Shown piece by piece: positions 170-24,035 of a stretch of DNA of 64,000 nucleotides. Made by a program: the position numbers and the translations under genes. The notes below the pieces were generated by a model that was given only the letters and a program-made list of their open reading frames with translations, ran no database searches and had not been told where the DNA came from. Position 1 is the stretch's first letter. Each line of letters begins with the position of its first letter. The DNA is from an uncultured Spirochaetales bacterium. Lineage in GTDB: Bacteria > Spirochaetota > Spirochaetia > Sphaerochaetales > Sphaerochaetaceae. The DNA is taken from contig CASDXQ010000007.1 in NCBI GenBank assembly GCA_949285145.1, forward strand, positions 1 through 64,000, given 5' to 3'.

Positions 170-1405
170 ATGGATGAATGGGATCTGTTCAAAGACAAGC
201 TATATTTTGCAAAGGAGGCTGCTGCCTATCTCGGTATCAGTGTGCAGCGGCTCGCAAAGCTCACGAAAGAAGGCAAGGTTCTTCCTCTGAAGAAGAATTC
301 TTCAGGTACGGTGTATCATTTGGATGAACTTGAAAAACGCAAAAGAGAATTATCCATTTTTGATAGTCTTGATAAAAATATTAAGGATGCCGGGATGTTT
401 AAAATAAACACTGCTGTCCGGCAGGAAGCTTTGAATTTCGCTGTGACAATGAATATCCTCAAAGCAAGTGAAAAGAAAGCCAACAGTCTGTTCAATGGTC
501 TTCCGCTTGAATTAATCTGCACTCCAATGAATGAAGAACTATCTAAATGGAGTTCTATTCTGAACTGCAGCGTAACAGATATTGCGGGTTCATATTCGAG
601 AGCAGCAACTGCATTCAGTAATCTGAAAGAAGATGATTGTATAATCAAGTTTGGCGATGATGAATATCCTGAACTTCTGGCAAGAACAGAAGAGGCTCCA
701 CGGTTTTTATATTTACGCGGAAGGACTGAACTTTTACAGAATATAAGAACTGTTGCTCTTGTCGGCAGCCGGCAGGCGGGAGATGATGGTAAAAGGAATA
801 CGGATAGAGTTGCAAGGGTTCTTGGTCAGAATGGAATAATAATAGTATCAGGACTTGCAAAAGGCATAGATGTGACTGCACACAGAAGCGCTCTTGCAAA
901 CGGTTTTGATACTATTGCGGTAATCGGTACCAATTTGAATCAGTATTATCCAAGTGAAAACATGGAAGTTCAGAAACAGGTTGAAAAAGAAGGACTTGTC
1001 ATATCTCAGTTTTCCCCTGCAACAAAGACAGAAAGATGGTTCTTTCCGCTTCGTGATGGCGTTATGAGCGGTTTGTCTCAGGCTACTGTGATTATGGAAG
1101 CTGGTGAAACTTCAGGGGCATTGAAGCAGGCCGCTTTTGCACTGAAACAAGGGCGTCTTGTTCTTATTCCGCAAAATGCCTTTATGCTGGAAACAATTTC
1201 CTGGCCTGCGAGACTGGAGAAGAAGGGAGCTCTGCGTGTCAGGTCTCCAAAAGAGATTATTCAGAAATTATCAGAATATAAAGTTTATAAAAATAATATG
1301 CCGAAAATGGATGATTATTCGCTTTTCATAAATTTGGAAAATGATCAGATGGTTGTCGCAGATACAGAGGGGAATTATTGTGCAGACAGATCAAAGAAAG
1401 ACTGA
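170..1405 (+). CDS. DprA-like (SLOG/Rossmann) protein with N-terminal excisionase-type HTH
   Basis: This 411-residue protein belongs to the DprA/Smf family of ssDNA-binding Rossmann proteins. Residues 11-55 look like a MerR/excisionase-type helix-turn-helix (FAKEAAAYLGIS, then GTVYHLDEL). A linker follows, then the DprA core at about 160-365: DDEYPELL (163-170), LVGSR (197-201), SGLAKGID (227-234), ERWFFPLRDGVMSGLS (288-303) and EAGETSGAL (310-318). Canonical DprA carries a SAM domain at the N-terminus and a winged helix at the C-terminus; neither is obvious here. No topA or competence gene lies nearby. It overlaps a phosphoribosyltransferase gene by 26 nt, so the two are probably translated together. 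That context suggests a conflict or DNA-processing role rather than housekeeping transformation; the role is inference. Confidence 0.85.
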   Translation: MDEWDLFKDKLYFAKEAAAYLGISVQRLAKLTKEGKVLPLKKNSSGTVYHLDELEKRKRELSIFDSLDKNIKDAGMFKINTAVRQEALNFAVTMNILKASEKKANSLFNGLPLELICTPMNEELSKWSSILNCSVTDIAGSYSRAATAFSNLKEDDCIIKFGDDEYPELLARTEEAPRFLYLRGRTELLQNIRTVALVGSRQAGDDGKRNTDRVARVLGQNGIIIVSGLAKGIDVTAHRSALANGFDTIAVIGTNLNQYYPSENMEVQKQVEKEGLVISQFSPATKTERWFFPLRDGVMSGLSQATVIMEAGETSGALKQAAFALKQGRLVLIPQNAFMLETISWPARLEKKGALRVRSPKEIIQKLSEYKVYKNNMPKMDDYSLFINLENDQMVVADTEGNYCADRSKKD

Positions 1406-2159
1406 GTTGTTTGTTTTCTGCATAGACAGCTATCTTGACGGCTTATCCGGGAAAGACTGGCAGGAGAATTTGGCAGTTTTTTGCAGGGAGCTCAGATATG
1501 TCATAATTACCCAGAAAGATAATGTGTGGCAAAAAAAGTATCCTGATTTGCGAATACAGGTTGTACCATACAAAACTATCGGATTATCTTTGTTGAATTA
1601 TCTTGCAGTGAATTTTTCTGTGGAAATTCAAAATATAGTGTTGATATCTGATGATTTCTGGTTTTTGGATAATGAGAACTATCTTTTTTCAAAGAGAATT
1701 TTCATCAATCATGAAGGAATTGATTTCTCATATGGAAAATATCCAGATGAAGTGTATAATGCTCTGTCTGATTTTTTTAATAATTTCAATTCTGACAGTG
1801 CTGCATATTTAGGAGAGAGAATTATTTCTTCTGATACATTGGTCAGCGGCAAACTGATTAGAACAGCATTGAGATATAAAGACAAACAATTACCGGTATT
1901 TGCCGGAGGCAGATATTACTCTCATTCTCATATGCTTTCTTTGTTTGACTTATATTCGTATGCATTAGTTACCAACAAAAGCGAGAAAAGTAAGCTGAAA
2001 AGTTCTTTTGATAGATTTTTTATCCGTATTCTGGAAGCTGAAATAAGGGATTATATGAGACACGGCTATGAGATTGACGGCATATGCTGTGTTCCTGATT
2101 TTAATTCAAATAAAGAAAAAAAACAAATTTTCAGAAATACTCAAAGCAGTTTCGACTGA
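1380..2159 (+). CDS. 5' part of split ComF-type phosphoribosyltransferase gene, HAD-like N-terminal region
   Basis: The likely start is the GTG at 1380, because AGAGGGG at 1366-1372 sits seven bases upstream; an earlier ATG at 1341 has no such site. The N-terminal half has features resembling a HAD phosphatase fold: FCIDSYLDGL near the start, a YVIIT strand, then VLISDDFWFLDNENY. The catalytic DxD pattern is imperfect, so the HAD call is tentative. The end of this reading frame (GYEIDGICCVPDF) is the first strand of a ComF-type PRTase domain, and the frame then runs out at 2159. Removing one A from the A8 tract at 2116-2123 joins it to the next frame. The joined product would be about 419 residues (1380-2640). 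Confidence 0.6.
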   Translation: MQTDQRKTELFVFCIDSYLDGLSGKDWQENLAVFCRELRYVIITQKDNVWQKKYPDLRIQVVPYKTIGLSLLNYLAVNFSVEIQNIVLISDDFWFLDNENYLFSKRIFINHEGIDFSYGKYPDEVYNALSDFFNNFNSDSAAYLGERIISSDTLVSGKLIRTALRYKDKQLPVFAGGRYYSHSHMLSLFDLYSYALVTNKSEKSKLKSSFDRFFIRILEAEIRDYMRHGYEIDGICCVPDFNSNKEKKQIFRNTQSSFD

Positions 2160-2640
2160 ACTTGGAATTGATGACTTGAGTCCGTATCTGAAAAAAGTAA
2201 GAGAGACACTGCCTCAAAAGACCAAGGAAAGTAAAACAGACAGGGAAATGAATGTCAAAGGAGCATTCAAATGTGATGTTTCAATGCATGGAAAGAGAAT
2301 CGTTATTTTTGATGACATCATGACCAGTGGCTCAACCATGAATGAGTGTGCAGATATTTTATTCTCGCAGGGTGCTTCAGAAATTCTATGTGCAGTTCTT
2401 GCTCTTAATCAGTTTGAGAGACAAGCTGATTTTGCTCCTATTATCAGCAGGTTTAAAGACAATTATGTCTTACGTATGAGGAGTTCTGACTGGCGTCCAT
2501 TTTTTACAGCAAAGGATGAAAATAAGACAATAAGCTACAAAAATGTCATGGATGAATTATACGCAGATCTGAATGAGTATGTATTGAAAATGAACAATGC
2601 ATCGGACTTTGATGAAGATGATTTTTCAGACGTCTTTTGA
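2068..2640 (+). CDS. 3' part of the same gene: ComF-like phosphoribosyltransferase domain
   Basis: This frame holds the rest of a ComF-family PRTase domain. ComF-like signatures occur in the usual order: RETLPQKTKESKTDREMNVKGAF, seen as RETLPQ, then REMNVKGAF, followed by the PRPP-binding loop IVIFDDIMTSGSTM and a final helix-strand pair (GASEILCAVLALN). The ATG at 2068 lacks a ribosome binding site and falls inside the preceding coding frame, so independent translation looks unlikely. Real coding sequence in this frame probably begins at about 2120. ComF proteins act in DNA uptake. Here the gene is paired with a DprA-like gene but with no other competence gene, so its substrate and role are unknown. 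Confidence 0.65.
   Translation: MRLTAYAVFLILIQIKKKNKFSEILKAVSTELGIDDLSPYLKKVRETLPQKTKESKTDREMNVKGAFKCDVSMHGKRIVIFDDIMTSGSTMNECADILFSQGASEILCAVLALNQFERQADFAPIISRFKDNYVLRMRSSDWRPFFTAKDENKTISYKNVMDELYADLNEYVLKMNNASDFDEDDFSDVF
2116..2123 (+). other. A8 homopolymer at the frame break in the PRTase gene
   Basis: Eight consecutive A residues follow a G at 2115. With seven A residues the upstream frame would read straight through into KNKFSEILKAVS and on to the intact PRTase domain. The tract could be a phase-variable switch, an RNA polymerase slippage site, a recent null mutation or a sequencing error. Confidence 0.75.
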
Positions 2641-2796
2641 GTAGAACCTATAGATAATTTTAAAAAGAGGAAAAGGTTGAGAGTATCATGAGGTATAAGA
2701 AGAGCAGATGAGGCAAATAGCAATCATATTCCATCTGCAATTCAGTTTTCTCATATGGCGGCAATCTTGTGTCCTTTGCAGCCTGTTATTTTGCAA

Positions 2797-2839
2797 ACAG
2801 ACAGAGATGCATCATTGACCTCTGTCTGTGATATTTTTT
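2797..2839 (+). terminator. Intrinsic terminator after the PRTase gene
   Basis: ACAGACAGAG at 2797-2806 and CTCTGTCTGT at 2820-2829 form a perfect 10-bp stem, followed by a T6 run at 2834-2839. It lies between convergent genes and ends the plus-strand operon. The span 2641-2843 holds nothing else I can identify. Confidence 0.75.
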
Positions 2840-2843
2840 CCTC

Positions 2844-3689
2844 TTATGATTTTACAGCACCAGAGGTCATGCCTGCCATGAAGTATTTCTGGAAGAACAT
2901 GAAGATGATTACAATCGGGATTGCACCCAGAACGCTCATTGCCATCATTTCGTTCCACTCGTATGTGTGCTGTCCCATCAGCAGCTGGATGCCGACCGGA
3001 ACAGTTCTCATATCCTGGGTTTTTGTAAGAGTCAGTGCATACAGGTATTCATTCCAGCACTGCAGGAATGTGTATATTCCCGTGGAGACCATTCCTGGCA
3101 TTGAGATCGGCACGAGTATTCTCCATAAGACAGTTCTGTGTGATCCCCCGTCTATCTGTACAGCTTCATCAAGTGCCTTTGGCAGCGTGTTGAAGTATCC
3201 TGTCATCATTGTTATTGCATATGGCAGGGTGAAAACAAGATAAGTCAGGATAAGTGCATAATATGAATTATAGAGATTGAGGGTTACAACCATGCCGAAA
3301 TAGGGGATGATCAAGGTGATAGGCGGGACAGCCTGTGTGCTCATGATAAACATATTGAGTGCCTTTTTCCCTTTAAAGCTGAAACGGCTGAAAGCATATC
3401 CTGCGAGTATTGCAACTATTAAAGTGAGTATTGTCACGGCACTGGAAACTATAAGGCTGTTTATGAAATATCGTATCTTCTCCGGGTCAGAGAAAATATT
3501 GATATATGCACTTGTGTCGATTTTATCAATGAGCTTCGGCTCAAGTGAGAAGATGTCACTGTTGGATTTGAATGAGCATGAAATCATCCAGATTATAGGC
3601 AGTATTGCGAAAAGGAGCCCTATAACCAGGCAGAAATATAGAAAGACTTTAAGAGCCAGTCTTCTTTTATGTGATCCTGTTACCATCAT
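2844..3689 (-). CDS. Sugar ABC transporter permease, MalG/UgpE type
   Basis: This is a 281-residue integral membrane permease of the carbohydrate uptake-1 family. It has an N-terminal transmembrane helix (residues about 12-34) and further hydrophobic helices. The cytoplasmic EAA loop that docks to the ATPase is visible as EAVQIDGGSHRTVLWRILVP. The start at 3689 (or the ATG three bases later) is preceded by GGGAGG at nine-base spacing. It is the last gene of the minus-strand operon binding protein - permease - permease. No ATP-binding subunit is encoded in the cluster, so a shared MsiK/MalK-like ATPase elsewhere is expected. Confidence 0.9.
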   Translation of the reverse strand: MMVTGSHKRRLALKVFLYFCLVIGLLFAILPIIWMISCSFKSNSDIFSLEPKLIDKIDTSAYINIFSDPEKIRYFINSLIVSSAVTILTLIVAILAGYAFSRFSFKGKKALNMFIMSTQAVPPITLIIPYFGMVVTLNLYNSYYALILTYLVFTLPYAITMMTGYFNTLPKALDEAVQIDGGSHRTVLWRILVPISMPGMVSTGIYTFLQCWNEYLYALTLTKTQDMRTVPVGIQLLMGQHTYEWNEMMAMSVLGAIPIVIIFMFFQKYFMAGMTSGAVKS

Positions 3690-3693
3690 AGTT

Positions 3694-4566
3694 TCAATCC
3701 TCCCTCTGGCTTTGTAATTTAAGATAGAAGAAGCAGAGAATCATGCAGATGACCAGTATGATTACAGCACTGGCACTTGCCCTTGAGAACCGCATGTTCT
3801 CAAATGCCAGCTTATAAGTATATGTTCCCATAACTTCACTTGCATGTATCGGGCCGCCGCCTGTTGTCATCCATACCAGAGACATCTGCTGCATGGTCCA
3901 GATGAAATCAAGCGTGAAAAGGCTCAGTATTACGGGTTTAAGCTGTGGAAGTGTTATTGCAGTGAATTGTCTGAATGCTCCTGCCCCATCAATAGTCGCG
4001 GCTTCATACAGATCTCTTGATATCCCCTGCATCCCGGCAAGAAAACTTACCATATAGAATGGATATCCGCACCAGATGTTGACGAATATCACTGCTGCAA
4101 GTGCGGTTGATGAGCTTCCGAACCAGTCTATAGGCGAATTTTCAAAAAGCAGCTGATTCAGAACTCCGCTGGAATTCAGTATCAGGCGCCAGAGTATTGC
4201 TACGATTGTGACTGTGAGTGTCCATGGCAGAATGAATAAAGCTCTGAATATATTTCTGATTGTCACATTAATATTCTCGCTGTTTATAATGAGGGCAAAA
4301 GCCATACCGAGACAGATATGGGCAACAACTGATACAATCGTGAATATCAGACTGTTGGACAATGCAGTCCAGAAAGTATCATCAGTCAATACATATTTAT
4401 AGTTTTCCAGCCCTGCAAATGCTGGATTTTTACTTGTGATTGCTTTGTCCAGCAGTGAGTAATGAATGATTTCCACCATTGGATATAGCAGAAGAATTGC
4501 AAATAATGCTATGACAGGCAGCAGATACAGGTATGGTGTAAACTGACGCCCTCTGATTTTCTGCAT
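3694..4566 (-). CDS. Sugar ABC transporter permease, MalF/UgpA type
   Basis: This 290-residue inner-membrane permease pairs with the MalG-type protein four bases downstream. It starts with a short basic segment and a first helix at about residues 12-34. The EAA loop is EAATIDGAGAFRQFTAITLP near residue 190-210. The strong site AAAGGAGG precedes the ATG at 4566. The length and helix count are typical of MalF/UgpA-like subunits that lack the large periplasmic loop of E. coli MalF. The substrate cannot be read from the sequence, but the linked kinase and aldolase suggest a sugar that enters glycolysis-like catabolism. Confidence 0.9.
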   Translation of the reverse strand: MQKIRGRQFTPYLYLLPVIALFAILLLYPMVEIIHYSLLDKAITSKNPAFAGLENYKYVLTDDTFWTALSNSLIFTIVSVVAHICLGMAFALIINSENINVTIRNIFRALFILPWTLTVTIVAILWRLILNSSGVLNQLLFENSPIDWFGSSSTALAAVIFVNIWCGYPFYMVSFLAGMQGISRDLYEAATIDGAGAFRQFTAITLPQLKPVILSLFTLDFIWTMQQMSLVWMTTGGGPIHASEVMGTYTYKLAFENMRFSRASASAVIILVICMILCFFYLKLQSQRED

Positions 4567-4583
4567 GTTTGATATACCTCCTT

Positions 4584-4622
4584 TAAAAGAAAGGGAGTGC
4601 AGAGTGAAATCTGCTCCCCCTT
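4584..4622 (-). terminator. Stem-loop between binding-protein and permease genes
   Basis: An imperfect hairpin (AAGGGAG/GCAGA pairing with TCTGC/CCCCCTT, 4591-4622) sits between the two genes and is followed on the minus strand by TTTCTTTT. Such elements commonly let the binding protein be made in excess over the permeases, by attenuation or mRNA stabilisation. Confidence 0.5.
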
Positions 4623-4643
4623 GCTTATTGAACTTACATTCCT

Positions 4644-5906
4644 TTACAGGCCCAATGTGTCATTCCATGAGTCCTGAACATTCTGGAGAGTTTCTTCGAT
4701 ACTCTGTCCCTGTTCAATCATTGCCTGAACTTCTTCACCGAAGATCCTCTGCAGCTCGCTTGCTACAGGCATTCCGATGAATTCATTGATAAGTTCGCAG
4801 TTCTGGAAAATTGCCTGTCCCTGCTGGAATGCGGGATCATCGCTTTCTGCCACAGCAGTCTTATTGCCAGGAAGTCCTGATGCAAGCTCTGCAATCTGTG
4901 CATTGACTTCAGGGGACATAAGATATTCAACGAGCCTCCATGCTTCATCAGGATGTTCGCTGCTTGCACTGACACCGACTCCCCACGGAGCATACATGAG
5001 TCCGGATGTGCCTGTGAAATCATCTGCAACCGGCATTGGAGCAACAGAGAAGTCAAGATCAGGATTCCTGTCGCGCAGAGTGGAGACGAGCGAAAGCCCG
5101 TTTACCATGAATGCGGCACGTTCTGTTGCAAATTCATCTGTCATGTCCTGAGACTGTTTGGACAGCACGCCAGGTGACATGATTCCGGCATTGTAGCAAT
5201 CCAGAATGAACTGAAGCACATCGATAATCTCCTGGTTTCCGACAAGATCCGGGTTGCCGTTTTCATCAAGCATTCTGCCGCCGCTTGCCCATACCCATGT
5301 CATCAGCTGATCCTGGCTTGCAGAAGGGTAGAGGAGCGAGAACGGGAAGATCCATGAATACACATTCTCATCGGGATTCGTGATTTTTTTACCAGCTTCA
5401 AGGAACTCACTTCTTGTTGCCGGAATTTCAACGCCTGCATCCTCAAGGATATCATTGTTGACGAACAGGTAATATACGAAGGTTGTTATGGCCATCATAT
5501 ATGTATCTCCGTTCACTGACACCGGAGCCGCAATGTCTTCTCTTGGGAGATTACCGGAATCAATGTAGTCATCAAGCGGTAAAAGAGCTCCCTGATCCAC
5601 GAGTTCAGAAACCCATGCACCGTCAAGTCCTACAACATCGCTCAAAGTTCCTGTTGCGGCTCCTGTGACCAGCTGATCGTGAGTACTTGAAAAAGGTCCG
5701 CTAACAAGGTTAACTTTAATGTCAGGATTCTGTGCTTCGAATTCATCCATTATCGCACGGAGGGATCCTTCCGGAAGTTCCGGCTCCCACCACTGGATAA
5801 ATTCAATTGTCACAGGCCCGTCGCTGTTCGTTTCCTGAGCACCGTTAGCAAAGCAAAGTGAAACGGACAGCATTACTAATACCATAATGGAAAGAATTTT
5901 TTTCAT
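4644..5906 (-). CDS. Extracellular sugar-binding protein of the ABC transporter
   Basis: This is a 420-residue family 1 solute-binding protein. The start at 5906 is chosen over 5939 because GGGAGGTG lies just upstream and because the longer version would overlap the ROK gene's stop. The signal peptide (KKILSIMVLVMLSVSLC) is followed by FANGAQE, a cleavage-site style I associate with spirochaetal binding proteins; the Cys could also serve as a lipobox. The mature part has the usual features: TIEFIQWWEPE near the N-terminus, then DVVGLDGAWVSEL and a C-terminal PDEAWRLVEYLMSPE segment. It captures the sugar outside the membrane and delivers it to the two permeases encoded downstream. Confidence 0.92.
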   Translation of the reverse strand: MKKILSIMVLVMLSVSLCFANGAQETNSDGPVTIEFIQWWEPELPEGSLRAIMDEFEAQNPDIKVNLVSGPFSSTHDQLVTGAATGTLSDVVGLDGAWVSELVDQGALLPLDDYIDSGNLPREDIAAPVSVNGDTYMMAITTFVYYLFVNNDILEDAGVEIPATRSEFLEAGKKITNPDENVYSWIFPFSLLYPSASQDQLMTWVWASGGRMLDENGNPDLVGNQEIIDVLQFILDCYNAGIMSPGVLSKQSQDMTDEFATERAAFMVNGLSLVSTLRDRNPDLDFSVAPMPVADDFTGTSGLMYAPWGVGVSASSEHPDEAWRLVEYLMSPEVNAQIAELASGLPGNKTAVAESDDPAFQQGQAIFQNCELINEFIGMPVASELQRIFGEEVQAMIEQGQSIEETLQNVQDSWNDTLGL

Positions 5907-5928: not shown

Positions 5929-7131
5929 TTATTTGTCATCAGTTTCTATCATTACGTATGGAAACTGCTGCTTCATGAAAATATCTTCTGCCATTTTTGC
6001 ACCTCCCAGCAGCCCTGCAATCGGTCCTGAAGGAGAGAAACAGATAGATACATTTGAAAATCTCAGTTTATGATATTTTTCAACAACCTTTTTCAGGAAA
6101 AGTTCTTCGGAATAAGGTATTGTACATATCTCTCCGCTGATCACAATTGCCGCAGGATTAAGCAGAGGATCAATCTTGTTTATCAGCAGGCTTATTTCTT
6201 CTGCAAACTGATCAATTACTGCGGCTGCCTTGATATTCCCGTTATAAGCAGCTCTGAATGCTTCGTCTATTACCGGAATGCATTTTTCCCTGCATCTGAA
6301 TTCATTGAAATCGACATTTCCGTTTTCTTCTTCTTTTAACATGTATGCCAGTTTCCGTAGTGTACTTGAATGTCCGTTCAGCTTTTTTGAGCCGTTCGAT
6401 GTATCTGCGTAGAACCCGATTTCACCGGCTATATAATTTTCACCACGATACACAGAACCGTTTATCATTATTCCGGCACCTATCTCCATTCCAATATCCA
6501 TTGCAACTATATTGCTGTATTTGTCACCCAGTTCTGCTTTATTTTGAAGAACTGCAAGTTTTACAACGTTGTCAATGAAAACAGTACATGAATATTTTCC
6601 TTCAAGCACTTTGACAATAGGGTAGTTTTCAAACTGCGGGTGGTATATTGCTTTTTCAACAACACCTTTGTCTGGATTCACTATTCCCGGAAATGCGATG
6701 CAGATAGCCTTTATCATATTTGTGGACTTGTGAAGCGTGTTTATGACAAAGTCATCAATTATAGCTGTAAAGCTTTCTCCGATGTCAGCATCAGCGTTCA
6801 TATCAAACTTTATGATTGAATTCGATTTATCAGCTGTAATCAGATTGTTGTAGGCATCTATCGATATCAATATGAAGTCATCGAGACTGGATTCATAAAA
6901 CTGGACACGTCTTTTCTGCGTGTTCATTTTGTATTCGGATGGAATTACGAATTTCTTTTCAACAAGTTCATCCAGTGCCCGGCCTACAGCCGGCAGACTG
7001 ATATTCAGGTCAAGGGAAATCTGTGCTCTGTATGAAGACCCATGTTCCTTCAGGTAATGGAAAACCAGGGACTGGTTGATTACCGACTGGAGGTTTGGCG
7101 TTGCTGTCTGATGCATTGTTATGTAGTCCAT
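5929..7131 (-). CDS. ROK-family transcriptional regulator (NagC/XylR type)
   Basis: This 400-residue regulator has an N-terminal winged helix-turn-helix (about residues 15-75: VFHYLKEHGSSYRAQISLDL then PAVGRALDELVEKKFV). A ROK sugar-kinase-like domain follows, with ICIAFPGIV, VAMDIGMEIGAGI and YIAGEIGF. The zinc-binding cysteine cluster typical of many ROK proteins is only partly visible (FRCREKCIPV). It is the first gene of the minus-strand transport operon and is divergent from the kinase-aldolase pair. A 21-bp palindrome lies between the two start codons, so it probably represses both sides until a pathway sugar or sugar phosphate binds. Confidence 0.88.
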   Translation of the reverse strand: MDYITMHQTATPNLQSVINQSLVFHYLKEHGSSYRAQISLDLNISLPAVGRALDELVEKKFVIPSEYKMNTQKRRVQFYESSLDDFILISIDAYNNLITADKSNSIIKFDMNADADIGESFTAIIDDFVINTLHKSTNMIKAICIAFPGIVNPDKGVVEKAIYHPQFENYPIVKVLEGKYSCTVFIDNVVKLAVLQNKAELGDKYSNIVAMDIGMEIGAGIMINGSVYRGENYIAGEIGFYADTSNGSKKLNGHSSTLRKLAYMLKEEENGNVDFNEFRCREKCIPVIDEAFRAAYNGNIKAAAVIDQFAEEISLLINKIDPLLNPAAIVISGEICTIPYSEELFLKKVVEKYHKLRFSNVSICFSPSGPIAGLLGGAKMAEDIFMKQQFPYVMIETDDK

Positions 7132-7146
7132 ATTTTTTTCCTTGAC

Positions 7147-7167
7147 TTACTAACTTAACATTAGTAA
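7147..7167. promoter_or_regulatory. Palindromic operator, probable ROK-regulator site
   Basis: TTACTAA at 7147-7153 and TTAGTAA at 7161-7167 form a perfect 7-bp inverted repeat around a 7-bp spacer. It lies 16 bp from the ROK gene start and 80 bp from the kinase start. Long A/T-rich dyads are normal for ROK regulators. No second copy was noticed in the window. Confidence 0.6.
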
Positions 7168-7246
7168 CATACTCAGTGTAAGGTTGGTGCCAGAAGCTGT
7201 CAAGAAAATTTTTAAACATTTTTCGGCAGGGCAGGGAGGAGGACAG

Positions 7247-8437
7247 ATGAAAAACAGTAAAGTCGCACTTGGATTCACGGATACAGTGGATTATGAGCTT
7301 GACTGGGATAGTGTGAATCTGAACAGCCTGATAGCACAACTGGGAATCTGCGCTGATGACATAAAATATCATTCATCTGTTTCTTCTCTGAAAGATCTTG
7401 TTTCTTTCATGATATATTTCATGCAAAAGAATGAAGGGTGTGGTCTGTTTATTGATAACGGCGCTCCTGTTTTCGATCTGCTGAAAAAATGTGAATACAC
7501 TGTTTCTCTTGGAGGCACAGCCGTAAGGGCTTCTTCTGTTCTGACAGATGCCGGAATTGAGTGCAATCTGTCACTTTCTTCAATCAACGATATAGTTAAA
7601 AAGAAACTTTCGCCGTTATGCAGGACATGGTGTGCTTTGGACTATGATTATGATGCGCCTCATATTGTCCTGCAGTATCCTTGCGGTGAAGAAATACGTG
7701 GCGCCGGTTTTTGTTTTACAACTTCAAGGGCAAACAGGCTTATTTTCACGTGTGATACATCTAATTCAAATCTGACTGTTCATCAGGGCTTCCTTGACAG
7801 TCTTGAAGGCTGTGATGTATTTGTCATTTCCTCCTTTGAGTTGATTGAAGATGAGAAACTCCTGCTGTCAATACTGTCAGCGGTTGATAAGGCACTTGAT
7901 GAGTATAATGGTATCGTATTTTATGAAGATGCCTGTTTCAAAATAAGAAAACATGCATTGATTGTAAACGATATGCTTTCAAAGCATACACATATACACA
8001 GCATGAATGAAGATGAGTTTGCCTTTTATCTTGGTCAGAAACCGGATCTTCTTGACAGTGACTATATGGAAAACGCACTTCATTCTGTCTATGAAAAAAT
8101 AAAATCGCATATTCTTCTGCTTCATACAAGTAAGTATTGTCTTTTATACGGAAATGGATGTGATGAATTAAAAAGTGCACTTGAAAGTGGTGTTATTCAT
8201 TCAAGTGCAAGATTCGGATACGGAGATAATGTGACGGATAACATTATCGAAGAAATAAGAAACAGTGGAAAATATGATCCTGAAGGTAACTGCTTTACTG
8301 CTGAAATTGAAAAAAAATGCGGATGCATATGTATTCCTTCTTATGAAGTTCACACGGAAAAACCTACAACCATAGGACTTGGCGATACCTTTGTCGGAGG
8401 TTTTGTCCTTGGACTGATAGAAAATATGAAAAGCTGA
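7247..8437 (+). CDS. ADP-dependent sugar kinase (ADP-GK/ADP-PFK family)
   Basis: This 396-residue protein has the hallmarks of ADP-dependent glucokinase/phosphofructokinase, a ribokinase-fold family that uses ADP as phosphoryl donor. SLGGTAVRAS resembles the sugar-binding segment, HSMNEDEFA holds the NxxE motif, and TTIGLGDTFVGGF holds the GxGD motif with the catalytic Asp. The start at 7247 follows GGGAGGAGG; an upstream in-frame start at 7184 has no such site. The family is best known from archaea and animals and is scattered in bacteria. It is followed 14 bp later by a class II aldolase gene, which suggests it makes a bisphosphate or ketose phosphate that the aldolase cleaves. The actual sugar and donor are not shown by sequence. 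Confidence 0.78.
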   Translation: MKNSKVALGFTDTVDYELDWDSVNLNSLIAQLGICADDIKYHSSVSSLKDLVSFMIYFMQKNEGCGLFIDNGAPVFDLLKKCEYTVSLGGTAVRASSVLTDAGIECNLSLSSINDIVKKKLSPLCRTWCALDYDYDAPHIVLQYPCGEEIRGAGFCFTTSRANRLIFTCDTSNSNLTVHQGFLDSLEGCDVFVISSFELIEDEKLLLSILSAVDKALDEYNGIVFYEDACFKIRKHALIVNDMLSKHTHIHSMNEDEFAFYLGQKPDLLDSDYMENALHSVYEKIKSHILLLHTSKYCLLYGNGCDELKSALESGVIHSSARFGYGDNVTDNIIEEIRNSGKYDPEGNCFTAEIEKKCGCICIPSYEVHTEKPTTIGLGDTFVGGFVLGLIENMKS

Positions 8438-9463: not shown

Positions 9464-9549
9464 TAAGATTAAATATATGCTGAACATATTGCTAACTAAA
9501 CACTATTGATGTTGAAAATGCATCATTTAATTATTATTCTTTTTCTGTG

Positions 9550-9714
9550 ATGTTCAATAAAGATTATGTTCTTGATGAGATTAGGAAGTCCGAACAGTTT
9601 GCAGATGATCAGAAATGTATTCTGGATTACTGCATGAGAGTGAGGCTTGAAAATAAAGAAAGGAAAGAAAGAAATGATAAACAAATTCCAGATGTCAGTG
9701 GAAGACAATGTTGA
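9550..9714 (+). CDS. Possible 54-residue protein overlapping the Fic gene
   Basis: An open frame from the ATG at 9550 encodes 54 mostly charged residues, beginning MFNKDYVLDEIRKSEQ and containing CMRVRLENKERKER. It overlaps the Fic start by 41 nt in another frame. Small genes just upstream of fic genes often encode antitoxins whose inhibitory helix has an (S/T)xxxE(G/N) motif. Here RLEN resembles the end of that motif, but the Ser/Thr is Arg. There is no Shine-Dalgarno site. It could equally be a non-coding leader. Confidence 0.3.
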   Translation: MFNKDYVLDEIRKSEQFADDQKCILDYCMRVRLENKERKERNDKQIPDVSGRQC

Positions 9715-10417
9715 ATTTGCAAAACGTCAGATAGTCGATTCAATTTATAAAGAAGCTCGTGTAGAAGGAATAAATGTAACATTTCCTGAAACCCAGCAGA
9801 TTTATGACGGCTTTCTGGTGAGCAGCCTTTCTTATGAAGATACTACGAAAATAATAAATCTCAAGCATGCCTGGTTCTTTGTTTTCGACAGCCTGGAGTA
9901 TCCGTTTGACTTGAGATACATGAGGCATATCAATGCGATAATTGAAACAAATTTGATCAGAAATGCCGGAGTTGTGAGAAATATAAGTGTCCGCATATCC
10001 GGTACAGACTGGATACCAGAAATCCCGTCGCCGGAGAAAATAAATAGAGAAATAAACAGGATCAGACAGATTGAAAATCCTACAGACAGAAGTCTGGAGC
10101 TGATGCTGTCTGTGATGAGAGGACAGTATTTTGAAGATGGCAACAAGAGAACGGCACAGCTTGTTGCCAATCATGAAATGATAAGCAATGGCTGCGGTAT
10201 CATATCTGTGCCTGTTGATCTTAAAACGGAATTCTCATCTCTTCTTGTGGATTACTATGAGTCTGATGACAGTAAACTGATAAAAGAGTTCCTCTATGAT
10301 GCCTGTATCTCCGGCTTTACAAGGGGATGCCGGCTTTCTGACGAGGAGATTGCCACACAGAGAGAGGAAGATGCAAAAGCCATTGATGAGTTTCTGAAAA
10401 AGAAAGGGGACAAGTGA
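9674..10417 (+). CDS. Fic-domain protein with altered catalytic motif
   Basis: This 247-residue Fic/DOC-family protein would normally transfer AMP or another group to a target protein. The start at 9674 has AGGA nine bases upstream; a TTG at 9647 is an alternative. The Fic loop, usually HxFx(D/E)GNGR, reads GQYFEDGNKRTAQL here. The catalytic His position is therefore Gln, and the second Gly is Lys, as in many GNKR Fic proteins. Near the N-terminus ARVEGINVTFPET resembles the inhibitory (S/T)xxxE(G/N) helix, but the Ser/Thr is Glu. The transferase is therefore probably inactive or has unusual chemistry. Its neighbours are accessory genes. Confidence 0.82.
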   Translation: MINKFQMSVEDNVEFAKRQIVDSIYKEARVEGINVTFPETQQIYDGFLVSSLSYEDTTKIINLKHAWFFVFDSLEYPFDLRYMRHINAIIETNLIRNAGVVRNISVRISGTDWIPEIPSPEKINREINRIRQIENPTDRSLELMLSVMRGQYFEDGNKRTAQLVANHEMISNGCGIISVPVDLKTEFSSLLVDYYESDDSKLIKEFLYDACISGFTRGCRLSDEEIATQREEDAKAIDEFLKKKGDK

Positions 10418-10506: not shown

Positions 10507-12030
10507 TCATTTTAGCCTGAGTTTCTGATTCCTGCTGTTCAGTTTCCCGGGAACTGTATATTCCACCAGTTCTTCTGAAATCAGTTCTCTCAGGACATCA
10601 CGCAAAGAAGCACTCACATATTTGTATCCCAGCAGTTTCGTTATCTCTGATGCAGACAGCTCTTCATGTTCTTTCAGAAAATCCAAAGCAGAATCTCTGA
10701 GATCATTTTTTGATCTGCGCATTTTGTGTTTTTCCTCTGCTGTATCCGTTATGATATTCTGATAGCAGGCTTTAAACTTTTCATGAACAGGTAAAATCAC
10801 TGTCAGATAGCTTCTTTCTGCATCTGTCTCAAAAACAGGCAGAGGGGATCCGTTTGCTTCCATCGCTTTCAGAACCGTGGGTATTCCCGTATTTCTTCCT
10901 TCTACCATATGAAGTTCTTTCAGAAAATCTCCGATTCTTCTGTTCCTGTATCGCCTTGATACCATCTTCCTGTTTTTCAAGTCCTCATCCGTTATGGTTC
11001 TGTCTGGCCCCGGAATGCTTGTTATTTCCATCTTCTCCGGTGTGATGGTTACTGTTATCGGCTCTCCGATCTGATATGACTTATGATATACGGCATTGGA
11101 GAGTACTTCCTCCACAGCTGCATAGGGATAGTTGAAAAAACGCTCTGCCTCCGCCTTGTTTCCGACTTTGTAGATCCTTTCTTTGATAATATAGTTTTTG
11201 ATATAGCTGAGTGCATCTCTCAGCTGTTTATCAAGCGGCCCTGTAAATATCTGTTCGGTCATTCCTTCGCCAGTCGGATCCGGTTTGTCCACTACTTCAA
11301 TTCTTGCATAACGGAAAAAATTATCCGGACGCTCATTAAAGAACATTAGTCCGACATTCAATGGTTTCATCATTTCAGAAGGGCCTCCGACAAGATGCAT
11401 GTCAACTGCTGTCTCCAATGTGCTCCTGAACAGGGAAGCCTGATATAAATCGCTTTTCACCGCATGCAGATATTCTGACATAAGACTCGGACGCATATCT
11501 GCGATATCTGCTCTCATGTTTATGCGGTCATCGAACGGAATATCTCCTGCAAGCATGAAAAGCTCTTTTTCCTCTGCAGCGCTGGCTTTCACGGTGCTTG
11601 CAAGTTTTCTTATATAATATGCCTTATCTCCCTTTTTTTCTGTTTTGTTTACGGGAAAATGTACCGGGCATTTGTATGGTCTGTTTTCTCCGCCAGGTAC
11701 CCAGATCACCATGATTTCTTTTCCGTCAAATTGTGTCTGTTTTGCAACCGGCAGATATCTGGGTTCAATCAGATTGCATTTTTCCAGCAACTCTTTGTTG
11801 ATTCTGTCAACAGATGATTTATCAAGACCTGTTATCGGAAATACAGGCATTCCGTTTTCTTCCTCTATACCGATGATGATATATCCGCCGCCCCAGTTTT
11901 CTATATCATTTGCAAACGCACAGATTGTGTGGAGAATTGGCTGTGGATTCCAGTCTTTCTTATATTCCACTCTTGCATTTTCCACGACTTTTCTGCGGAT
12001 AAGATCTTCAATGCTAATTGGCAGGGCCAT
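10507..12030 (-). CDS. AlbA_2 (Schlafen-type) / HATPase-fold putative transcriptional regulator
   Basis: This 507-residue protein has the common three-part layout of RecG-like regulators. The N-terminal AlbA_2 domain includes EDLIRRKVVENARVEYKKDW, seen as ENARVEYKKDW, and GGGYIIIGIEEENG (residues about 10-130). The central-to-C-terminal HATPase_c_4 region includes EEVLSNAVYHKSYQIGEP and RNRRIGDFLKELHMVEGR. A winged helix closes the protein (SASEITKLLGYKYVSASLRD). AGGAG stands nine bases before the ATG. Many relatives sit beside phage or toxin-antitoxin genes. Here a 20-bp palindrome lies directly upstream and may be its autoregulatory operator. The true ligand and targets are unknown. Confidence 0.85.
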   Translation of the reverse strand: MALPISIEDLIRRKVVENARVEYKKDWNPQPILHTICAFANDIENWGGGYIIIGIEEENGMPVFPITGLDKSSVDRINKELLEKCNLIEPRYLPVAKQTQFDGKEIMVIWVPGGENRPYKCPVHFPVNKTEKKGDKAYYIRKLASTVKASAAEEKELFMLAGDIPFDDRINMRADIADMRPSLMSEYLHAVKSDLYQASLFRSTLETAVDMHLVGGPSEMMKPLNVGLMFFNERPDNFFRYARIEVVDKPDPTGEGMTEQIFTGPLDKQLRDALSYIKNYIIKERIYKVGNKAEAERFFNYPYAAVEEVLSNAVYHKSYQIGEPITVTITPEKMEITSIPGPDRTITDEDLKNRKMVSRRYRNRRIGDFLKELHMVEGRNTGIPTVLKAMEANGSPLPVFETDAERSYLTVILPVHEKFKACYQNIITDTAEEKHKMRRSKNDLRDSALDFLKEHEELSASEITKLLGYKYVSASLRDVLRELISEELVEYTVPGKLNSRNQKLRLK

Positions 12031-22221: not shown

Positions 22222-23463
22222 ATGTTGCTGAATATGACTATTGCGAACTTCAAGTCCGTAAAGTCCCCTCAGAAGATCAGCTTTGAGGCACTGAGGGATA
22301 ACCGCCTTCCCGAAAGCAAGGTTGTTGTCATCAACGACAAGCTGAAGGCAATCAAGACAAGCGCGATCATCGGACCCAACGGTGCGGGAAAAAGCTCATT
22401 TGTCCGTGCGCTTGAAGTCCTTAACAGGGTTGTGACCAGTCCTGACGAGAATGAAAATCCTCTTGCAGGAGCCCTTTCCGGCACTGTTTTCGCATATGGT
22501 GTGGAAAAGACAAAACCGGCTGAGATAGAGATAGAGGTTCTGTTGTCAAAAGGCGACTACAGCGAGGAGAATCCGACTGTGATCGCCCGCTACCGCTTCG
22601 TAGCAAACAAGGACAGAATCTATGAAGAGACTCTCTATCATGTGGTCAACGGTTCAAAGAAACTCATGTTCGAGCGCAGGTATGTAGAAAGCGAGAATGT
22701 CTATGCATACCGTTATGGAAAGATGTACAGAGGGGAGAAAAAGCGTCTTGCAGGAAAAATCGCCGACACGGCCAGCTTCCTCGGCATGGCTGCCAGAAAG
22801 GGAGGTGAGACCTGTTCAATGCTTTACTCCTGGTTCACAGACAGTCTGCACATCCTTCCGATGGGCGTTTCCTCCGCAACGGAAAGCTACATAGCCGAAA
22901 TGCTCACAAAGCATCCAGGCTGGAGGGAACAGCTTTCCAATTTCTTCTGGGCTGTCGACATTACGGATATCCGCCGTGTCGGAGTGAGGGAAGACGGAAA
23001 GGTTGTCTTCACCCACGTGTACATCAATGACAAGAAGGCTGACGGATATTCAAACCTTTTCACTCTGGAGTCTCTTTCACTCAGACGTCTTACGGCTCTT
23101 GCCGTTGCTTTCTTTGAATGCTTCACAAGCCACAAGACTCTTGTTGTAGATGACTTCGGCATGCTGCTTCATCCTGATGTGCTCTGTCACATTGTGGAAA
23201 TATTCGAAGCCTGCAACAAGGAAAGCCAGATGCTGGTTGTTGACTGCAATCCGTCCCTGCTCAAGGAAGGCCTGCTGAGACGCGACGGTGTCTGGTTTGC
23301 ACAGAAGAACCACGAATCAAGCACAGAGTATTACTCGCTTGCGGATTTCAAGGCTTCACGCGGCAAGGCGAATACAAGAGAGAAGTATCTGCAGGGTGCT
23401 TACGGTTCTCTGCCGATTACCAGCGAGTTCTACTTCGTTAATGATGAAAAGGAGGCTGACTGA
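22222..23463 (+). CDS. RloA/AbiLi-like AAA ATPase (OLD/SMC-type)
   Basis: This 413-residue ATPase begins with NMTIANFKSVKSPQKISFE, typical of AAA_21/OLD-type proteins. The Walker A is AIIGPNGAGKSSFVRALE. A signature-like helix reads TLESLSLRRLTALAVAFFE. The Walker B is TLVVDDFGMLLHPD, where the usual catalytic Glu after the Asp is Asp. The final switch region is VVDCNPSLL. AGGAGG sits eight bases before the ATG. It is followed without a gap by a RloB-like gene, the pairing known from RloAB loci in restriction islands and from the lactococcal AbiL abortive-infection system as I recall it. A phage-defence role is plausible but untested. Confidence 0.82.
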   Translation: MLLNMTIANFKSVKSPQKISFEALRDNRLPESKVVVINDKLKAIKTSAIIGPNGAGKSSFVRALEVLNRVVTSPDENENPLAGALSGTVFAYGVEKTKPAEIEIEVLLSKGDYSEENPTVIARYRFVANKDRIYEETLYHVVNGSKKLMFERRYVESENVYAYRYGKMYRGEKKRLAGKIADTASFLGMAARKGGETCSMLYSWFTDSLHILPMGVSSATESYIAEMLTKHPGWREQLSNFFWAVDITDIRRVGVREDGKVVFTHVYINDKKADGYSNLFTLESLSLRRLTALAVAFFECFTSHKTLVVDDFGMLLHPDVLCHIVEIFEACNKESQMLVVDCNPSLLKEGLLRRDGVWFAQKNHESSTEYYSLADFKASRGKANTREKYLQGAYGSLPITSEFYFVNDEKEAD

Positions 23464-24035
23464 TGGCTACACGCAAAAGAAACAGTACGGAATCAAGAAG
23501 GACATTGCTCCTTGTTACAGCCACTGAAGCTGAAGCTCTAAATGCGAAAGACCTGAAGCATCTGATCTCTTTCACCGCAAGGGAGAAGAACAGAAACAAA
23601 TATGATGTCGCTTTTGCTCTTTTCGGTTTTGACGACGTGAATACCAGCATTGAGGAAGTCAGGGAAGCACAGGAGGCATGTGCCGGCAGAAGAATACAGC
23701 TGTGCTATTTCAATCCATGTTTCTCTCTCTGGCTGTATATGCATCTTGGAAAGCCGCAGAGTTTCATTTCCGATGCTTCTGTATTCGAGAGTGAAGTCAG
23801 AAAAGCGATACAGGGACTTGAGTGGACACCGGAATATCTTCTTACAGACGGGCTGAATCTCCACATGAAACTGTTCCCGCGTCATTCGCTTGCCGACCAG
23901 AACGCAAGAGATTACAACAAGCTTGCGATACAGGCGACAGGAGAGAAGGCGACTACAATGCCGGAGCTTAACAAGATGATTACTGAAGTATGCGGACAGG
24001 CTGACATGTCTCACAATACAAAGGTATTCAAATAA
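23463..24035 (+). CDS. RloB/AbiLii-like protein, divergent
   Basis: This 190-residue protein resembles the RloB family, thought to have a Toprim-like nuclease fold. It starts on the A of the RloA-like stop codon. The typical CEGExTE motif near the N-terminus is replaced here by LLVTATEAEALN, and the DKDD-type motif by LFGFDDVN. The conserved middle (CYFNPCFSLWLYMHLG) is well kept. Loss of part of the acidic cluster suggests weak or altered catalysis. It is the second half of an ATPase-effector pair and is followed three bases later by a membrane LuxR regulator gene. Confidence 0.75.
   Translation: MATRKRNSTESRRTLLLVTATEAEALNAKDLKHLISFTAREKNRNKYDVAFALFGFDDVNTSIEEVREAQEACAGRRIQLCYFNPCFSLWLYMHLGKPQSFISDASVFESEVRKAIQGLEWTPEYLLTDGLNLHMKLFPRHSLADQNARDYNKLAIQATGEKATTMPELNKMITEVCGQADMSHNTKVFK

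Follow-up and report, generated by a model that had tools for sequence, protein, structure and literature searches.

A probable ShosTA-type toxin–antitoxin pair of gut spirochaetes with a predicted operator and a repeatedly broken toxin gene

Introduction

A DprA-like gene that overlaps a phosphoribosyltransferase (PRTase) gene in a gut spirochaete raises the question of whether the two serve DNA uptake or belong to a conflict system. The pair lies at the start of the window, by which we mean the whole 64,000-nucleotide stretch of DNA that was analysed; its base 1 is the first base of contig C7 in a 61-contig, 2.06-Mb genome. A first-pass annotation, made from the letters alone, had suggested a self-contained system, perhaps for phage defence, and pointed to similar pairs in earlier surveys. 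Such pairs do exist. The first-pass annotation overlooked that this kind of system, ShosTA, is already described and structurally solved (PMC9122126; PDB 8zva-8zvd and 9vzo), and that E. coli carrying a DprA-PRTase pair is protected from phages T7 and lambda (PMC9122126). In the related RqlHI system the PRTase domain of RqlH is toxic and RqlI counters it (PMC4670107). According to PMC12593503, which cites Pu et al. 2025, ShosT is both a PRTase and a pyrophosphatase and disturbs purine metabolism; DNA is duplicated and cells filament and die, and one trigger is T7 Gp0.7. Leptospira interrogans, likewise a spirochaete, already has a ShosTA call from DefenseFinder (PMC11201134).

Results

The operon encodes a ShosA-like antitoxin and a PRTase in a broken frame

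The first gene (170–1405, forward strand) encodes a protein of 411 residues, 98.5% identical to its counterpart in the sister species G015, with a DprA/SLOG domain at residues 158–357 (PF02481, E = 3e-59). Its best PADLOC profile is ShosA (E = 8.3e-69), followed at a distance by PsyrA (E = 6.6e-30). A search of PDB with the antitoxin profile matched DprA (3uqz) as well as the solved ShosA structures 8zva (E = 3.9e-29) and 9vzo (E = 4.2e-29). The excisionase-type helix-turn-helix (HTH) that had been noted at its N-terminus corresponds to positions 212–343 and matches HTH_17 below the Pfam cut-off (PF12728, residues 15–58, E = 2.3e-4). We nevertheless regard this HTH as credible, because the region is strongly conserved in relatives of 57–67% identity; the protein of phage phiOH2 is among the relatives that conserve it.

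The second gene is a PRTase, as the first-pass annotation had read it, and the two-gene operon is real. The first open frame of the PRTase gene spans 1341/1380–2159. Translation likely starts at the GTG at 1380, which is preceded by a ribosome-binding site (GAGGGGAA), and with this start the two genes overlap by 26 nt. The 5' piece (1380–2159, forward strand) carries HAD-like motifs of a degenerate HAD-like region and the beginning of the PRTase; it is 92% identical to the intact toxin of locus L003 and ends early. Compared with that orthologue, the frame changes at an A-run at 2116–2123. The 3' piece (2124–2640, forward strand) lies in another frame, inside the open reading frame 2068–2640, and holds the PRTase domain (PF00156, E = 1.8e-8) with a canonical PRPP loop, DDIMTSGST, at 2311–2337. 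The DDxxTxGxT positions of this loop are invariant across 10 homologues. In the sister species G015, on the contig that carries L003, the gene is unbroken and encodes 419 residues.

The toxin gene of the window genome is thus interrupted at 2116–2123, with intact copies in relatives. With its toxin frame disrupted, the copy in the window is most probably a remnant that makes the antitoxin alone, unless the break is an assembly error; we infer that it no longer yields a working toxin. Programmed frameshifting at the A-run is disfavoured, as intact relatives have a single frame and none shows a similar arrangement. Phase variation at the A-run is likewise unsupported, since lesions in other genomes sit at other sites.

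Fold comparison links the toxin to ShosT

We used the intact L003 orthologue to characterize the toxin family. PADLOC matched it to PsyrT (E = 6.4e-19) and ShosT (E = 1.3e-10); the same two profiles matched the 3' piece from the window (E = 1.2e-15 and 3.5e-9, respectively). The PsyrT match is limited to profile positions 545–685 of 689. Confidence in the structure model of the L003 toxin is low to moderate (pLDDT 66, pTM 0.58). In a fold search with this model the top three PDB matches were ShosT structures (8zvc, 8zvb and 8zvd; E = 1.7e-9 to 5.8e-9), with TM-scores of only about 0.3 and 11–12% identity in the fold alignment, and after them came ComF and other PRTases. ShosT was absent among the best 60 matches when the toxin sequence profiles A1 and A4 were searched against PDB sequences, so the link between the toxin and ShosT rests on the fold comparison and PADLOC.

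Taken with an antitoxin homologous to ShosA, an adjoining helicase-free PRTase whose intact orthologue matches ShosT (the weak point being that the PsyrT profile scores higher) and a complete PRPP-binding loop, these results lead us to read the pair as a divergent ShosTA-type toxin–antitoxin, an abortive-infection module of a gut spirochaete, with a probability of roughly 0.85. The self-contained conflict or defence system that had been proposed is therefore supported, in the form of a ShosTA-type pair predicted from PADLOC and fold matches.

A putative degenerate HAD-like region precedes the PRTase

The first-pass annotation had also described a HAD-like N-terminal region in the PRTase protein. 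Plasmid homologues L011 and L012 carry a HAD domain at the Pfam level (HAD_2, E about 1e-17), and profile-to-profile comparison aligns the toxin family with the L011–L013 homologues at 99.7% probability, over a stretch that runs from around HAD motif IV across the PRTase. The same alignment reaches the HAD domain at its end only, and a Pfam scan of the L003, L005 and L009 toxins gave no HAD match. In the L003 model the N-terminus is Rossmann-like. A motif-IV-like SDD is kept in spirochaete toxins. In motif I (DxD) the nucleophile is lost: none of the aligned spirochaete toxins has the first Asp, for which they carry another residue, and the Firmicute L009 alone retains it. The motifs suggest, with moderate confidence, that the region is a degenerate HAD domain. 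The earlier description thus has moderate support: the distant DprA-linked homologues (L011–L013) have classical motifs, and in the spirochaete proteins a degenerate version can be traced.

A conserved inverted repeat overlaps the predicted promoter

The predicted forward-strand promoter of the operon has a -35 box (TTGACA, 135–140) and a -10 box (TAAACT, 157–162) that ends 7 nt before the antitoxin ATG, an arrangement common to 15/15 loci of the family. A predicted operator, an inverted repeat with arms at 128–137 and 146–155 and an 8-nt spacer (128–155 overall), lies over the -35 box. A block of roughly the form TYAAGNGTTG-acaatnnt-MAACNCTTGA, overlapping a TTGACA-like -35 box, was found upstream of all fifteen antitoxin genes, as was a -10-like hexamer 5–8 nt before the ATG. 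The Firmicute L009 shares the repeat, with perfect 11/11 arms and an 8-nt spacer. Inverted-repeat tests on single sequences were mostly non-significant, and significance was reached only in a fixed-register cross-genome test, where arm pairing rose to 72% at the operator centre against a mean of 31% (sd 9) over 325 registers. The degenerate operator pattern occurs once in the window genome, and the region upstream of the phiOH2 pair shows no clear repeat of the same form.

The HTH-DprA protein probably represses its own operon by binding this repeat; autorepression is the simplest reading because the antitoxin bears an excisionase-type HTH. Given where the -10 box lies, the spirochaete mRNA may well be leaderless, in contrast to L009 and phiOH2, for which a leader containing a ribosome-binding site is predicted.

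The toxin decays repeatedly and the antitoxin does not

Across 139 family genomes (the order holds an equal number), the toxin is present in 15, belonging to 2 of 22 genera, and full-length HTH-DprA is found in exactly the same 15 genomes; all other DprA hits in the family represent ordinary DprA and leave the HTH uncovered. A phylum-wide sample of 393 genomes added a single genome outside the family, with a hit to the PRTase part alone. In the Firmicute family of L009 the count was 2/350, and a scan of viral_contigs with the toxin alignment returned two weak partial matches.

Reading of the individual loci showed that the antitoxin gene is intact in all fifteen, whereas the toxin gene is broken in seven (Fisher p = 0.006, an approximate value because the test treats as independent loci that are not fully so). 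Apart from the frame break at the A-run in the window genome (G000), the lesions are an IS200-type insertion in G009 (Y1_Tnp, E = 3e-39), in-frame stops in G037 and G046, frameshifts in G028 and G060, and an interruption at a contig break in G062, the least certain case. The neighbourhood is common to G068 and G060, and likewise to G050 and G046, with the toxin intact in the first and broken in the second member of each pair; since the partners are intact, the lesions in G060 and G046 are recent and separate. Comparison of the window genome with G015 gives the antitoxin a dN/dS of 0.05 and the two toxin pieces values of 0.27 and 0.19. Repeated loss of one partner and never of the other is what is predicted for a toxin and its antitoxin.

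The break in the window could instead be an error of a metagenome-type assembly, the gene being intact in the living cell. In favour of this, the break lies inside a homopolymer and a single assembly was read. Against this, random error would not be expected to strike 7/15 toxin genes and 0/15 antitoxin genes of the same length, and in the other genomes the damage takes the form of stops, frameshifts and an IS200-type insertion, at different places. We therefore hold an assembly error to be unlikely, if far from negligible, and genuine decay of the toxin gene to be the better account.

The pair occupies a variable, partly defence-rich site

The window begins with the end of a multicopy repeat (1–107), at the contig edge and 62 bp before the antitoxin ATG. 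Further copies lie at C10:1–102 and C12:62438–62540 of the same genome and at contig ends in G015 (C3, C23 and C25) and G009 (C4). At the sister locus in G015, unrelated sequence takes the place of 1–107. The repeat is probably an insertion sequence that inserted 62 bp before the ATG, and it leaves promoter and operator whole.

The segment 107–9532 is 95% identical to G015, whereas the DNA beyond it is 89–90% identical in both G015 and G013. G013 has no such segment at the matching place and carries other genes there, including AbiH. In G015 the stretch just upstream of the intact pair (6201–7774 of L045) holds an AbiH abortive-infection gene (PF14253, E = 2e-49) together with an XRE-type regulator, and genes for a Phd-type antitoxin and for a Fic protein are likewise near the G015/G013 site. 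The site of the pair is variable and partly defence-rich. A defence-island setting, one of the checks proposed in the first-pass annotation, thus applies to G015 and G013 with their nearby defence genes; as a rule for all homologues it is only partly true, since most neighbourhoods are not defence islands, which counts against the ShosTA reading, and other genomes have housekeeping neighbours, for example LeuRS- and UvrA-like genes by open-reading-frame reading.

Several further genes were observed in these regions. The boundary of the variable spot lies near 9505–9532. Just downstream of this boundary, the window encodes a Fic-family protein (9647–10417), which matches PF02661 (E = 5e-6) and, weakly, PDC-S04. 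The strand opposite to the Fic gene encodes a Schlafen/AlbA_2 protein (10507–12030) whose C-terminal domain is RecG-like. At 22222–24035 an AAA ATPase gene (AbiLi profile, E = 3e-61) is directly followed by one for a RloB-like protein (PF13707, E = 3e-9; AbiLii, E = 3e-5), which looks like an AbiL/RloAB-type defence pair. In G045 (L050) the ShosTA-like operon is preceded, at a distance of about 320 bp, by a BrnT ribonuclease-toxin gene (7008–7298; PF04365, E = 3e-24).

Discussion

The ShosTA assignment has to be weighed against two other functions suggested by the domain content. One is competence or recombination, with a DprA and a ComF-like PRTase for DNA uptake that have been displaced from the other competence genes. 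The antitoxin does match TIGR00732 (DprA, E = 9.5e-55), and the L003 toxin matches comF (E = 3.4e-13) and GntX (E = 9.9e-16), but the DprA and comF scores fall short of their curated thresholds (TIGR00732, 185.2 of 191.15 bits; comF, 50 of 233.55 bits), so neither match is at equivalog level. Within the available sequence, which begins at window base 1, no competence gene adjoins the pair. The window genome has comEC on contig C10 and a second, ordinary DprA on C14, which bears out the earlier remark that no competence gene is near, and in the neighbourhoods examined homologues are not consistently beside comEC, comEA or topA. A role in DNA uptake is also hard to reconcile with a pair that is patchy (15/139) and whose PRTase partner is often broken, and we consider it highly improbable. 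The other candidate is a PsyrTA/RqlHI-type system, in which the toxin joins a RecQ-like helicase to a PRTase at its C-terminus. Among PADLOC profiles PsyrT does score best on the PRTase part, and PsyrA matches the antitoxin. The PsyrT match, however, covers only the end of that profile, intact toxins of about 419 residues gave no helicase domain in a Pfam scan, and ShosA matches the antitoxin far better than PsyrA does. Such a system is accordingly improbable here, and we keep to the ShosTA-type reading.

The spirochaete pair resembles ShosTA in its adjoining genes for a DprA-like antitoxin and a PRTase, in having ShosA as best profile and ShosT as best fold match, and in its PRPP loop. It differs in the conserved operator and in the additional N-terminal HTH of the antitoxin, which lies outside the ShosA profile match (this begins at residue 143), and in that the toxin is very divergent and, in the window genome, broken. 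With PsyrTA and RqlHI it shares a homologous PRTase domain and a DprA-like partner, without the RecQ-like helicase domain of their toxins. RqlI, like the antitoxin described here, has an HTH (PMC4670107); that of RqlI is C-terminal, whereas ours is N-terminal. A limited literature search found no description of an N-terminal HTH with a conserved operator, nor of the decay asymmetry.

By analogy with its ShosTA relatives, we infer that the spirochaete subfamily acts as they do, with transcriptional autoregulation added. The DprA/SLOG domain of the antitoxin would hold the toxin in check, and its N-terminal HTH would act as a repressor at the inverted repeat that covers the -35 box. On phage infection or DNA stress the PRPP-using phosphoribosyltransferase toxin would be released, and it would then upset nucleotide pools, cause DNA damage and arrest the cell. 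More tentatively, and as a possibility that we would not yet call probable, the family may form a distinct ShosTA branch: the N-terminal-HTH DprA would be a dedicated autorepressor at a repeat common to the spirochaetes and the Firmicute, and the DprA domain, on sensing phage or DNA stress, would bring about both derepression of the operon and release of a toxin with a pseudo-enzyme HAD.

These results extend ShosTA to a little-studied family of gut spirochaetes and offer a concrete candidate DNA site for the control of such a defence pair. They also add a genomic line of evidence that does not depend on expression assays, in that the predicted toxic partner is repeatedly broken and the predicted antitoxin never.

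Similar pairs occur on mobile elements. The plasmid pairs of Priestia, Sinorhizobium and Bradyrhizobium (L011–L013) share with ours a DprA neighbour and the homologous PRTase half, and in L011 and L012 the HAD domain is on the same protein as the PRTase. The Sinorhizobium and Bradyrhizobium proteins have a classical HAD motif I (FDLDMT), in contrast to the spirochaete toxins with their replaced first Asp. The pair of Geobacillus phage phiOH2 (L014) consists, as here, of an HTH-DprA (410 residues) followed by a PRTase (401 residues). Unlike ours it is phage-borne, its toxin ends in a zinc-ribbon match, and its mRNA has a predicted leader with a ribosome-binding site. The phiOH2 genes (2308–4774) adjoin terminase genes, which shows that the module travels on phages.
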